Shown: one piece after another, positions 10,545 through 51,220 of the stretch
Layout: each line of letters opens with the position of its first letter
Position numbering within the stretch: position 1 is the stretch's first letter
Source of the DNA: Fibrobacter sp. UWB13
GTDB taxonomy: Bacteria; Fibrobacterota; Fibrobacteria; Fibrobacterales; Fibrobacteraceae
Assembly (NCBI RefSeq): GCF_900177805.1
Contig: NZ_FXAX01000004.1
Location: forward strand, 143,882-207,881
Direction: 5' to 3'
DNA: 64,000 nucleotides
Made by a program: the position numbers and the translations under genes
The notes under the pieces: model-generated
What the model was told of the DNA's origin: nothing
The model's input: the letters and a program-made list of their open reading frames with translations, nothing else
Database searches by the model: none

Positions 10545-11648
10545 ATGGGTGGCATTATTCTCGCATGCCTGACTGCGCTTTATGCGCTACTGTTCCTATT
10601 CTTTATCATAGGACTGTTAAAGACGCATCGTTATAAAGGCCCAAAGGCCACCCCGAGTGTTTCGGTCGTGATCCCGATGCGCAACGAAGAGGAGTTTGCC
10701 GAACGCACACTCGAAGCGGTCGCTGCCCAGGACTACATTGGCGAATGGGAAGTGATTTGCGTCGATGATCGTTCTACGGACCGCACGCGCGAGATTCTCG
10801 AAAAGTTTGCCACCACGCACCCGCGATTCCGCGTTTTGAGCCTTCCGCAAGACTTACCGCAAATCGCAAGCCCCAAGAAGCGCGCACTCGAAAGCGCCTT
10901 CAAGATTGCGAAAAACGAAGTGCTCTTGACGATGGACGCCGACTGCATCCCGCGCAAGAGCTGGATTACCGCCATGGCCGGGCGATTTGTCGATGGTATC
11001 TGCATTGTGCAAGGCCCCAAGCAGAACAACGGTTCGCGTTCAATGCCGCACCTCTACCAGAAACTCGAGACTCTCGGCTACACCGCGATGGAAGCAGCGG
11101 GCTTTAGCCTTGGCCGCCCGATTGTCGCCAGTGCGGCATGCCTAGCGTACAAAAAAGATCTGTTCTTTAAAGTCGGCGGATTCGGAGACCTCATCAACCT
11201 CTCGAGCGGCGATGACGACATGCTCATCCACAAGATGATGAAAATCCCGGGAACGAAGGTTTGCTACAATCTCGACAAGGATGCTGTGATCGAGACCGCC
11301 CCGGTGCACACGTGGAAGCAACTTTTCAACCAGCGCGCCCGCTGGAGCAGTAACGGCACGAACTACGAAAGCAAAGCCTACATCCTTTTGCTCACGCTCA
11401 TTTACACATACTACATCTGGATGTTCGTGAGTCCATGGTGCGCTATATTCCTCGACTTTCCGTGGCAATGGTGCGTATTCAGCATTCTGCCCAAGATTGT
11501 CGTGGACTTCGTATTCTTGAGCATTGCATCCTGGAAACTCAAATCCAAGCGCCGCATGCTTGCGTTCTTGCCTGTAGAGCTTATCCAAATCCCAATGATT
11601 GTGTTCTGCGTCCCCGCAGGAATCTCGGGAATGTTCCGATGGAAATGA
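10545..11648 (+). CDS. Family 2 membrane glycosyltransferase
   Basis: A 367-aa GT-A fold glycosyltransferase. An N-terminal membrane helix (about residues 4-24) is followed by the nucleotide-sugar domain: SVVIPMRNEEEF, VDDRSTDRT, metal-binding DAD (residues 131-133), an acceptor-side SSGDDD acid motif and QRARW (near residue 263), the mark of processive GT2 enzymes. Two to three C-terminal membrane helices follow (about 285-360). Substrate and product are unknown; polysaccharide or glycolipid synthesis is likely. It diverges from lpxA, which fits an envelope role but does not prove one. The start has no ribosome site and is preceded by TATATT. Confidence 0.85.
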   Translation: MGGIILACLTALYALLFLFFIIGLLKTHRYKGPKATPSVSVVIPMRNEEEFAERTLEAVAAQDYIGEWEVICVDDRSTDRTREILEKFATTHPRFRVLSLPQDLPQIASPKKRALESAFKIAKNEVLLTMDADCIPRKSWITAMAGRFVDGICIVQGPKQNNGSRSMPHLYQKLETLGYTAMEAAGFSLGRPIVASAACLAYKKDLFFKVGGFGDLINLSSGDDDMLIHKMMKIPGTKVCYNLDKDAVIETAPVHTWKQLFNQRARWSSNGTNYESKAYILLLTLIYTYYIWMFVSPWCAIFLDFPWQWCVFSILPKIVVDFVFLSIASWKLKSKRRMLAFLPVELIQIPMIVFCVPAGISGMFRWK

Positions 11649-47575: not shown

Positions 47576-47727
47576 TGTCATCCCGGATTTATTGTGCAAG
47601 CACAAGGCCCTTCGGCTCAGCTATGTCAAAGATTAAAATCTTTGACGCAGCGTTCGCCTCGTTCGCCTTTCCGGGGTCGCCATCTCGCTTATGAAAAGGC
47701 GATGCCGGAACGGAGTCCGGCATGACA
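47576..47727 (+). repeat. Composite intergenic repeat region after aroC
   Basis: Starts with TGTCATCCCGGA (47576), includes CCTTCGGCTCAGC (47609-47621, also inverted at 33226), a hairpin GTCAAAGAT-taaa-ATCTTTGAC (47625-47646), and ends with ATGCCGGA-acggag-TCCGGCATGACA (47702-47727). The two REP-like ends bracket the block, which has no open frame of note and may also serve as a terminator for aroC. Confidence 0.65.
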
Positions 47728-47745
47728 TGCATCGAGGCACTGCTA

Positions 47746-48615
47746 ATGATATACACAACGAAGCCTTTCCGTCTTGCAGCAGCCGCAATCTACCGGATTG
47801 CGTACAAGCTACACCACAAATTATTTTTGCGGCCACAACCGCCCATTAAGACTCCCGTCATCATCGTCGGGAGTTACCTAGCAGGCGGTGCCGGAAAGAC
47901 TCCGTTCACCATCTGGCTTGCAAAGCGTCTTCAAGAACAAGGTAAAAAAGTCGCGATTCTTTGCCACAGCGCCGCATGGGACGAATTCATCATGATGCAG
48001 CAGGAACTCGACAACGTATTCGCGACCAAGAACCGCTACAAGACCGCCAAGGAAATTCAGGACAAATTCGATATTATCCTTTGCGACGACGGCTTTGAAG
48101 ACTCGCGTTTTACAGGCGCCCACTACATCTGTCTCGACTGGCAAGAACCACCAACATCATGGAAAAGCCTTTTGCCAAGCGGCCCTTTTCGCAGCCTAAA
48201 ACAAGACCACGACGAACGCCAAATCACCCATCTCCGTTGTTTCGATTCATTCATCCAAGCACCCGACATCCAGTTCGCCATTAAATCCATAACAAATTAC
48301 ATTCCGGGTAAGCCATTCACCGCCACCATCATTTGCGGACTCGGATCCCCCAACCGCTTTATCGACGACATCCGCTCATTTGCAACGCCCTGCGGTATCC
48401 AAATCAACAAAATAATTACACGTTCCGACCACGACAAACACTTCCCAGTAGTCGTTCAAGCAGAGCTTTCGCAAGACCACGATATTATTATTTCTCAGAA
48501 AGACGCCTGCCGTCTGCCACAAACAGTCCTCAACCACGCCAAGCTCCACATCGCAATCCAAAAAATCGAAGTTTCCCCAAAAGTTCAAGGATTGGTTGCC
48601 ACAGTAACCACCTAA
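47746..48615 (+). CDS. lpxK: Tetraacyldisaccharide 4'-kinase LpxK
   Basis: A 289-aa inner-membrane kinase that adds the 4' phosphate of lipid A. The Walker A motif VGSYLAGGAGKTPFTIWL sits near residue 35 after a membrane-associated N-terminus, and IILCDDGFEDSRF matches the DDGxQ catalytic/Walker B-type segment. It is some 40 residues shorter than E. coli LpxK, mostly in the middle, where AILCHSAAWDEF replaces the usual SRGYG loop. The first ATG of the frame lies inside a palindromic repeat; the one used follows GAGG by 8 nt. lpxA is far away at 9743. Confidence 0.82.
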   Translation: MIYTTKPFRLAAAAIYRIAYKLHHKLFLRPQPPIKTPVIIVGSYLAGGAGKTPFTIWLAKRLQEQGKKVAILCHSAAWDEFIMMQQELDNVFATKNRYKTAKEIQDKFDIILCDDGFEDSRFTGAHYICLDWQEPPTSWKSLLPSGPFRSLKQDHDERQITHLRCFDSFIQAPDIQFAIKSITNYIPGKPFTATIICGLGSPNRFIDDIRSFATPCGIQINKIITRSDHDKHFPVVVQAELSQDHDIIISQKDACRLPQTVLNHAKLHIAIQKIEVSPKVQGLVATVTT

Positions 48616-48695: not shown

Positions 48696-50249
48696 ATGAA
48701 TTTGCGTCAGCGTTTTGCCGAACTTCTTCAGATCATTACCAAAGACATTCCAGAAAGAGAATACTATGTGCAGTTGGGATTCCTCACCGCACTCATTCAG
48801 GAACCGTTCTACTTGTACGGTCGCCCCGGCTGCGGAAGCTCCCTCTTTATCCGCAGAATTTCGAGCGCATTCAAGGACGCCCGCGTTTTGAAGCTCGGGA
48901 AAAAGCAAAGACAGCTCCCTGACAACATCAACGATTTCAATCTGATTATCTTCGATAACTTCACGCCCAACGACGAACAGAGCAAGAGTAATCTCCAGAT
49001 TGTCATCCACGATCACGAAAAGAATTCCATCATCATCTCGGGTGACCAAAAGCCGGAATCCGCATTGAGCAGGTCCGAAGTGAGCGACCAAGTCACGCTT
49101 ACCATCATGCTCCCCGACAGCATTTCTTCGGAAGCCCTTTGCAAGCTCCTGCAAATTCACGGTACAGACAGTAACGTCAACGTTCCGCCCGCAATTGCCA
49201 TCAGCGCCGAAGAACAGGCTCAGTGGATTCAGGAAATCAGCAAAGTCACGCTTTCCCCGAACACGCTCGCCGTCATCGGCAAGGTTGCAGAGACCTGTGA
49301 AAAGAACTGCGTTTACGTGCCCATCCGCAGATGGCTCGCCCTTTCGAACATGATCAAGGCAATCGCATACCTCAACGGGCGCTCCGAAACCAAGCTTATC
49401 GATACATTCTTCCTCGGCACATCCATCTGGGGACGTAGCGCATCTAACACCGCCATTTCCGAAAGCTATAAGCAGATTCTCAAAGAGCAATTATATAAGA
49501 ACACGCCGAGCCTCCTAGAAACGCCTTATGACGCCAACAGCCTGCTCATGCGCGTGAACCATCTTGTCCACAGCTCCAACAACCTTTACGAAACCAAACC
49601 GTTCAACGGCGAGAAATGCCTCGCCTACCGCATCACGATTGCAGGCGAATCCGTACCGCTTTACGCGCCGCTCAAATACATCGAAACAGATGTCAGCTTC
49701 AATCCGTACAACGAACTCCGCCAAATCGAAAAGCGTGTTGTCTGCAATTACCACGGTACTTCGAACTGCACTATTTCCATCGATCCACAAGTCCGTACAA
49801 GCGGGCTGCGCAGTTCCGTGAACCAGTCCAATGCCGCTTGCACAAAGTTCGAAGAATTCGGTACACTCCCGACATACATCTTGAGAGAAAACGCGCCAGA
49901 AATCATCGAAGAGAAAAAAGTTCTTCGCGACACGCTGAATGCCGAAATCAAGGAATCCATGGACCGCGAAACGGCAAACCTAGTCGCCTTGCGTAACACA
50001 TATAAATTATTCAACGAATCGAAGGACGACCTTTTCTGCTTTACGCAGATGTTCAACGCCGTCCAAAGCGATATCAAGGCACAGTTCGACAACACCGCAA
50101 ACATCATCAAGACCATCAAGAAGGCAAGCGAAGTCATCGCATCGTTCTCAAATAACATGCTCAAGACTCCGAACCTCGTCGGTAAGCCGCAAGCCAAGCC
50201 ACAGGCGCAGGCACCACAGGCGGCTCAGCCTTCTAATGCCGAAAAATAA
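48696..50249 (+). CDS. RavA-like MoxR AAA+ protein with inactivated ATP site
   Basis: A 517-aa protein that aligns with E. coli RavA over most of its length: FLTALIQEPFYLYGRPG (RavA LLAALSGESVFLLGPPG), RRISSAFKDAR, WIQEISKVTLSPNTLAVI and YVPIRRWLALSNMIKAIAYLNGRS, then a LARA-type middle and helical C-terminus. The Walker A reads G42-RPGCGS-S49: the Lys is Ser48. Walker B reads IIFDNF (DN for DE). About 30 residues between them are missing. It is therefore probably a structural pseudo-ATPase. The C-terminus is Pro/Gln/Ala-rich. GGGAG lies upstream of the ATG. The next gene starts 14 bp later. Confidence 0.8.
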   Translation: MNLRQRFAELLQIITKDIPEREYYVQLGFLTALIQEPFYLYGRPGCGSSLFIRRISSAFKDARVLKLGKKQRQLPDNINDFNLIIFDNFTPNDEQSKSNLQIVIHDHEKNSIIISGDQKPESALSRSEVSDQVTLTIMLPDSISSEALCKLLQIHGTDSNVNVPPAIAISAEEQAQWIQEISKVTLSPNTLAVIGKVAETCEKNCVYVPIRRWLALSNMIKAIAYLNGRSETKLIDTFFLGTSIWGRSASNTAISESYKQILKEQLYKNTPSLLETPYDANSLLMRVNHLVHSSNNLYETKPFNGEKCLAYRITIAGESVPLYAPLKYIETDVSFNPYNELRQIEKRVVCNYHGTSNCTISIDPQVRTSGLRSSVNQSNAACTKFEEFGTLPTYILRENAPEIIEEKKVLRDTLNAEIKESMDRETANLVALRNTYKLFNESKDDLFCFTQMFNAVQSDIKAQFDNTANIIKTIKKASEVIASFSNNMLKTPNLVGKPQAKPQAQAPQAAQPSNAEK

Positions 50250-50263
50250 CGTATATTGAGGGC

Positions 50264-51220
50264 GTGAACTTAATTCTCCTCTGGGCGGGTATCGCCATCA
50301 TTTGGCTACTATGCATCTGCATGACCAAAAAAGGTTGTGCAGTTATTCGCATTCTCTGGAGGAGCATCAAGGTAAAATTAACCATCATTGTATGCGCACT
50401 AGGCATTGCCGCCATCACGACCGCTTACGCTACGCACCCCGAAGAAGCCCCACGCCCAACAATTGACGAGCAGCACGAATACCAAAAATACGCGACTTCC
50501 GCCATTCAAAAGCTCTGCGACCAAGGCGAACTCATTATCGACATGAACTGCAACCTCGACAGTGCGGCTGCAGAACTAGCCTACATCCTCCCCACCGTCA
50601 TCAACAATTACAATCTCGTCGTCACGCGACCCACGACACCGATTCTCGAAAAAATCAAGGACACGCTCCAAATCAAGATGATCGGCTACAAGAAATTCAA
50701 GAACAGAGGCATCCGACTCACAAAAGCGCTGCAACGCGATCTCGGCATCCGCTACGATATCGAAATCATTTCCGAAGACACGGACCACACGCTGAAAATC
50801 ACATACAACGGAAAGCGTTGGGACAGCGAACACCTTTGCAACCTCCCCGTTCTCGAAGCATGCCTCCGCGAACGCACAGACCCCGCCGTTCTCATGTCCA
50901 TCATCCAGCACACTTCCGGATTTCAGATGAACTATCAGGGCAAAAACAACACGTCCGGATTACTCGCACTCGATACTGGCAAGGGTTTAGAACAAATTGA
51001 CATAGGCGCCCATCGCCTCAAAAAAGTTCTAGCGACATCACCCACGCTCGCCGACGCCGTTGCGCAATTCTACCCCGATGCAGAACACCGCAACAAATTC
51101 GAGAACTGGCGCAAAGACCCGCAAAAGCATTACTGGGTGGGGCAAGTCCTTACGGACATTCAATACTACCGCAGCAACGGCATGACGCTTACCCCGCGCA
51201 AACGTCAAAGAGCGGAATAA
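50264..51220 (+). CDS. Membrane-anchored protein with degenerate lysozyme-like (SLT) domain
   Basis: A 318-aa protein with two N-terminal membrane helices (residues about 2-19 and 37-56). The middle (DEQHEYQKYATSAIQKLCDQGELIID ... YNLVVTRPTTPILEKI) is of no known family. The region from about residue 200 (RERTDPAVLMSIIQHTSGF ... TSGLLALDTGKGLEQID ... DAVAQFYPDAEHRNKFENW) has the layout of lytic transglycosylases. However, the catalytic Glu of 'xESGF' is Thr217, so it is probably not a muramidase. The start is GTG near a GAGGG; an ATG at codon 20 is possible. It is likely cotranscribed with the RavA-like gene. Confidence 0.6.
   Translation: MNLILLWAGIAIIWLLCICMTKKGCAVIRILWRSIKVKLTIIVCALGIAAITTAYATHPEEAPRPTIDEQHEYQKYATSAIQKLCDQGELIIDMNCNLDSAAAELAYILPTVINNYNLVVTRPTTPILEKIKDTLQIKMIGYKKFKNRGIRLTKALQRDLGIRYDIEIISEDTDHTLKITYNGKRWDSEHLCNLPVLEACLRERTDPAVLMSIIQHTSGFQMNYQGKNNTSGLLALDTGKGLEQIDIGAHRLKKVLATSPTLADAVAQFYPDAEHRNKFENWRKDPQKHYWVGQVLTDIQYYRSNGMTLTPRKRQRAE

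Follow-up and report, generated by a model that had tools for sequence, protein, structure and literature searches.

What can two neighbouring genes be doing when their products have the shape of known enzymes and lack the residues with which those enzymes work? The question is posed by a locus of Fibrobacter sp. UWB13 (genome G000, 3.8 Mb in 10 contigs) that lies in the window, the whole stretch of 64,000 nucleotides analysed here. Protein A (517 aa; 48696-50249, + strand) is a RavA-like pseudo-ATPase; 14 bp separate it from the gene for protein B (318 aa; 50264-51220, +), a protein with two hydrophobic N-terminal helices and a lytic transglycosylase-like (SLT-like) domain. Directly upstream of A lies lpxK, which specifies lipid A 4'-kinase (47722-48615, +; Pfam LpxK, 99.9 bits); the product is somewhat divergent, its score of 88.9 bits falling slightly short of the 91.95 that NCBIfam sets for lpxK. 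The initial annotation read A and B as a system that had kept binding and lost catalysis, perhaps an envelope-bound scaffold. What is new is a conserved RavA-like protein without hydrolysis residues: no paper on the A family is found among the matches listed in a literature search, judged by titles and the starts of abstracts, in a corpus that leaves preprints and most subscription papers outside.

The predicted structure of A follows the RavA fold from end to end: AAA core, lid, triple-helix bundle and a LARA-like β domain (residues 301-397; 49596-49886, +) in which C350 and C358 are present in 59/59 orthologs. Sequence comparison recognizes the RavA-type AAA lid (PF17868, AAA_lid_8) at 39.2 bits, against a cut-off of 22.8. 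The score with the RavA model NCBIfam NF010054 is 75.4 bits, below the curated cut-off of 681, and the 26 AAA_5 matches in the window genome do not include A. The C-terminal half matches no known RavA when searched with its own profile, and the profile of full-length A reaches only 4.9 bits in this part (the best among the matches listed); the identity of this half as LARA-like therefore rests on the predicted fold. The LARA-like region is also the best conserved part of A in the genus, with a mean identity of 0.667 versus 0.42-0.63 elsewhere, which suggests a binding role. The P-loop stretch (residues 35-60) is almost as well conserved, at 0.631, so that contact with nucleotide may matter in most lineages. 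In E. coli, RavA deprived of LARA no longer binds phosphatidylglycerol (PMC9489729), and the LARA domain of RavA binds LdcI (PMC4145799). Inspection of A by eye reveals no hydrophobic N-terminus, and the protein is presumably cytosolic for that reason. In a 481-aa database protein (P0056), half of A (52% of its length, at 97% identity) is fused to several further Pfam domains, which we take, by their accessions, to be of the helix-turn-helix type; this fusion may be an artefact of assembly or gene calling.

Nucleotide contacts in RavA are made by A51, K52, S53 and D114, with R170 and R251 contributed by the adjacent subunit (PMC6987120); the K52Q variant of the E. coli protein is called ATPase-deficient (PMC10585395). 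In A, the degenerate Walker A motif GRPGCGSS (48819-48842, +) has Ser at codon 48 (48837-48839), the equivalent of K52, and the degenerate Walker B motif is Asp87-Asn88 (48954-48959, +), at the place of D114-E115. Asp117 stands at the sensor-1 residue N155, Gln132 (49089-49091, +) at the Arg finger R170, and Arg211 at R251. A lacks 34 alignment columns of the RavA core that lie between Walker A and sensor 1; the initial annotation had put the absent part of the core at about 30 residues.

These losses are not peculiar to the window. Among 59 orthologs retrieved from genomes, the sensor-1 Asn is replaced in all 59 and the Arg finger in 52 (it is kept in 7), and a Walker B Glu at position 88 survives in one. 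The sensor-2 Arg is retained in 36/59 and the P-loop glycines in 59/59. Isolated hydrolysis residues do persist: in an alignment of 99 sequences (A1; 98 of 120 listed homologs of A, with 185 found, after exclusion of fragments and near-duplicates), Asn117 occurs in 6 and Arg132 in 12. In 157 aligned sequences, however, an Asp or Glu at 87 is never followed by Glu, and a Walker A Lys is never found together with a Walker B Asp-Glu. The residues for ATP hydrolysis are missing from A across its family.

Position 48 has a different history. Lys stands there in 119 of the 157 sequences (119/125 outside the window clade), Arg in 6 and Ser or Thr in 32; among the genome orthologs the count is 10 Ser and one Thr in the window clade, 37 Lys and one Arg in the 38 other Fibrobacter, and Lys in 10/10 of the other genera. 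At the Ser/Thr site that follows position 48, N, G, A, R or Q are frequent. In a tree of the 157 sequences (A1 plus 58 genome orthologs, rooted on the other genera, in which some proteins may appear twice), all 32 proteins with Ser or Thr at position 48 form one clade with a support of 1.0 and nothing else inside it; its sister group consists of three proteins with Arg48. An acidic residue at position 87 is found in 32/32 members of this clade and in 0/125 of the others. Each protein thus has either K/R48 and no acid at 87, or S/T48 together with D/E87; the combination of Lys48 with Asp or Glu at 87 is absent from all 157. Parsimony on the tree requires one change at position 87 and three at position 48. 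Named records outside the tree agree: loci related to A are found in 11 Fibrobacter MAGs, five of them titled F. succinogenes, at 78-92% identity to A, and 11/11, checked residue by residue, have S/T48 with D/E87. The loss of Lys48 is a single evolutionary event, to be weighed as one. The Ser at position 48 is thus specific to the window clade; orthologs with Lys, which the initial annotation would have taken as a sign of recent decay, do exist, yet they too are without the residues for hydrolysis.

Canonical RavA is rare in the phylum Fibrobacterota, being found in 8/167 genomes. A ViaA-like gene lies beside it in 2 of the 8 stretches, seven of which are only about 2.5-4 kb long. One such pair (L145:5065-8565; also L162) sets canonical RavA next to a ViaA-like VWA protein with an N-terminal DnaJ domain (Pfam DnaJ, 73.2 bits; VWA_CoxE, 34.6 bits, in L145). 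An active RavA elsewhere in the window genome was considered and rejected: the sole other match of the RavA model is a frame of 309 codons (32.8 bits), and AAA_lid_8 occurs once. A query with E. coli ViaA, which matches one of the seven genomes searched, has no match in this one. The search that had been proposed for an active RavA/ViaA pair elsewhere in this genome accordingly has a negative outcome.

In B, the hydrophobic helices (residues 2-19 and 35-56, with a basic stretch between them; 50267-50431, +) are taken as a membrane hairpin; the helices come from the structure model, and hydrophobicity and conservation were judged by eye. The predicted structure of residues 187-308 (50822-51187, +) has the SLT/goose-lysozyme fold, and this domain is presumably periplasmic. 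Sequence comparison places it lower: B scores 11.7 bits with Pfam SLT (PF01464), below the cut-off of 21.3, seven relatives of B yield a single match (12.8 bits), and the B profile finds no transglycosylase by sequence among solved structures. Codon 217 (50912-50914) places Thr at the site of the catalytic Glu. In 50 B orthologs aligned at this column (alignment A2 holds 53 of 56 homologs of B), Val is found 23 times, Thr 14, Ile 8, Ala 2 and Leu once, with 2 gaps; the Glu of the ES motif is absent from 48/48 of the orthologs aligned there. The loss of the Glu, first noticed as Thr217, is therefore general, but its replacement by Thr is not. In L156, a divergent ortholog, the next column contains a Glu.

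How closely do A and B keep company? The phylum sample comprises 120 genomes and the family 66 (49 of the genus Fibrobacter and 17 others). Orthologs of A are present in 59 of the 120, namely in 49/49 of the genus and in 10/17 other family members; a sixtieth match (G063) proved to be a canonical RavA. B is found in 53 genomes (48/49 and 5/17, respectively), and in the only genus genome without it (G113) the contig ends soon after A. In the family, 52 genomes have both, 7 have A only, one has B only and 6 have neither; one genus of six sampled genomes, one of them a single contig, has A without detectable B. The co-occurrence of A with the pseudo-SLT protein B is real. In 38 of the 52 genomes with both, the two lie on one fetched stretch, always on the same strand. 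Measured between tblastn matches, 30 of these 38 loci have them less than 700 bp apart (7 with nothing between and 23 with a GroES-like gene between on the other strand), and the remaining 8 have them 1.2-6.9 kb apart. All 7 directly adjacent pairs belong to the window clade. In 13/52 genomes separate contigs carry the two genes, and the sequence downstream of A contains no B for at least roughly 4.6 kb; in G016, A crosses a contig break and B starts 438 bp past the end of A. An A-B operon as a general feature was accordingly rejected, a GroES-like gene in between or separate contigs being the arrangement in many genomes; the joint conservation that the initial annotation looked for holds as co-occurrence and fails as a two-gene unit.

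Each gene has a steadier neighbour of its own. For A, in the genus Fibrobacter, it is lpxK, which is directly upstream on the same strand (gap of -1 to 174 bp, again between tblastn matches) in 47/49 loci; the remaining 2 have an insertion between the two genes. In the other genera lpxK is beside A in 0/10 loci. Insertions are also found on the other side, where three loci of the window clade (L126, L130 and L131) have other genes between A and B. The frames concerned, judged by eye, include one that resembles an Rpn-type nuclease/transposase (L126:10920-11849, -) and Ser-rich lipoprotein-like frames between lpxK and A (L127 and L130); pairs of large frames separate A from B in L130 and L131.

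For B, the steadiest neighbour is the GroES-like gene, head to head with it in 38/40 B loci outside the window clade and within 300 bp of it in 37; only L123, whose B lies at the end of a contig, and L156 are without it alongside. (Among the 38 other Fibrobacter genomes, the counts of this gene beside B cover 35, all but G016, G084 and G102.) Where A is elsewhere, the GroES-like gene stays with B in 10/11 fetched loci, the exception being G114. Many loci also have it on the opposite strand downstream of A, no more than 1.2 kb away in 8/10 loci of other genera and no more than 300 bp away in 22/38 other Fibrobacter. Pfam assigns two members of the family to Cpn10 (56.4 and 51.5 bits; cut-off 21.1), and the protein retains a GL(Y/F)LP stretch at the place of the mobile loop of GroES. 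In L136, for example, the gene lies between A and B (10714-11097, -), head to head with B and facing A. It was not found in 11/11 genomes of the S/T48 clade (two of them less than 90% complete), and three of three control genomes carry it in addition to the usual groES. Most simply, then, the tight A-B pair of the window is a by-product of the loss of the GroES-like gene.

The reading that we prefer, at a probability of about 0.5, is that A, with a predicted RavA fold and without hydrolysis residues throughout its family, is an ATP-independent scaffold at the inner membrane. With segments of the RavA core between Walker A and sensor 1 missing or shortened, A is unlikely to be a threading motor. 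Where a Fibrobacter lineage has the P-loop Lys, A may still bind nucleotide; in the window clade, Ser or Thr has replaced Lys, perhaps by way of the Arg that the sister group has, and nucleotide binding was probably lost as well. A would work through its LARA-like domain, next to LpxK, as a membrane-side adaptor, and its most likely function would be one at the inner membrane, in the biogenesis of lipid A or of the envelope. B would be a separate membrane protein linked to the GroES-like gene, its pseudo-SLT domain binding peptidoglycan instead of cutting it; a physical link between A and B, suggested by their co-occurrence, is possible. The acidic residue 87 of the Ser48 clade, which is without counterpart in the relatives, may be part of an unusual metal or nucleotide site.

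Four other explanations have been weighed against this one. That A is an ordinary RavA in recent decay toward a pseudogene would account for the missing catalytic residues and core segment, and deserves next to no credence. Within the window clade, 11 sequences of A (55 pairs) give a median dN/dS of 0.073 and 10 of B (45 pairs) one of 0.078; when A is divided, the AAA part stands at 0.054, the lid at 0.088, the C-terminal part at 0.073 and the tail beyond residue 480 (32 of 55 pairs usable) at 0.167, all of these ratios being only rough because synonymous change is high (mean pS 0.56 for A and 0.44 for B). A match to A is found in every sampled genome of the genus, no sampled genus has a complete Walker A/B set, and an enzyme whose hydrolysis residues are gone family-wide has not decayed recently from an active one. 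Decay of A and B is very unlikely, and the initial view of them as intact, constrained genes without catalytic residues stands. The P-loop raises a different prospect, that A is a nucleotide-gated switch in which Lys48 and the sensor-2 Arg hold ATP unhydrolysed, the F. succinogenes clade being a later, nucleotide-free offshoot. The near-universal Lys48 outside that clade (37/38 other Fibrobacter and 10/10 other genera) and the invariant glycines speak for such a switch; the frequent replacement of the Ser/Thr that should follow Lys, and a sensor-2 Arg in only 36/59 orthologs, make it improbable.

The remaining two turn on the neighbours. A and B might be one envelope-spanning scaffold, with cytoplasmic A gripping the basic loop of B and the pseudo-SLT domain of B holding peptidoglycan. 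Joint presence in 52/66 family genomes (with A alone in 7, B alone in one and neither in 6), a common strand in all 38 loci that hold both, and the absence of catalytic residues from each protein across its family are what such a scaffold should display. We nevertheless think it unlikely: the two genes are on different contigs in 13/52 genomes, a genus of six genomes has A and no detectable B, the closest companion of B is the GroES-like gene even where A lies elsewhere (10/11), and co-occurrence is confounded by shared descent. With A presumably cytosolic and the SLT-like domain of B presumably periplasmic, a joint complex would moreover have to pass through the short loop of B. Still more doubtful is a chaperone pair of A and the GroES-like protein, in which loss of the GroES-like gene freed the P-loop Lys to change. 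The gene is downstream of A in 8/10 other-genus loci and 22/38 other Fibrobacter, and it is not found in 11/11 S/T48 genomes and is found in 3/3 controls; but the Lys loss and the gene loss are one event each, so that their coincidence may be chance, and when A and B are separated it is B that the GroES-like gene accompanies (10 fetched loci).

A bolder reading has the whole family convert a RavA-type AAA+ machine, in two steps, into an envelope scaffold that is no motor. Hydrolysis would have been abolished first, the P-loop being kept as a structural or nucleotide-locked site; a swap of P-loop Lys and Walker B acid and the loss of a dedicated GroES-like partner would have followed in the F. 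succinogenes lineage, and the AAA scaffold that remained, free of nucleotide, would couple lipid A synthesis to a periplasmic pseudo-transglycosylase. So complete a scheme is a long shot. The less ambitious observation has consequences of its own. Work on RavA in enteric bacteria treats it as an ATP-driven chaperone, for which several roles are proposed; a predicted RavA shape kept without ATP hydrolysis would separate the binding from the hydrolysis roles of the RavA body, and natural orthologs of A with and without the P-loop Lys are a ready-made comparison. The label MoxR-like ATPase, which one source attaches to several A proteins, would mislead.

Set beside known systems, A shares its predicted fold and AAA_lid_8 with RavA, the MoxR AAA+ ATPase of E. 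coli (PDB 3nbx, 6q7l), and differs in having no Walker B Glu, sensor-1 Asn or Arg finger, in the loss of the Walker A Lys in the window clade, in the 34 missing core columns, and in having lpxK, not viaA, as neighbour in a genome without a ViaA match. A is best described as a RavA-derived pseudo-ATPase. The canonical RavA of the same phylum (e.g., L145:5065-6741) also has AAA_lid_8 and, by eye, a C-x7-C in its C-terminal half similar to C350/C358 of A; unlike A, it has a full AAA_5 match and GPPGTAKS and LDE motifs, and it occurs sporadically. B resembles the family 1 lytic transglycosylases MltF, Slt and MltC and the goose-type lysozymes, from which it differs by the replacement of the catalytic Glu with V, T, I, A or L, by a score below the Pfam SLT cut-off, and by its two hydrophobic N-terminal helices. 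What separates A from B in 23 relatives is a GroES (Cpn10)-like gene; in contrast to the usual groES, which has 103 codons in the window genome, it specifies a protein of about 127 aa, with about 17 extra residues.
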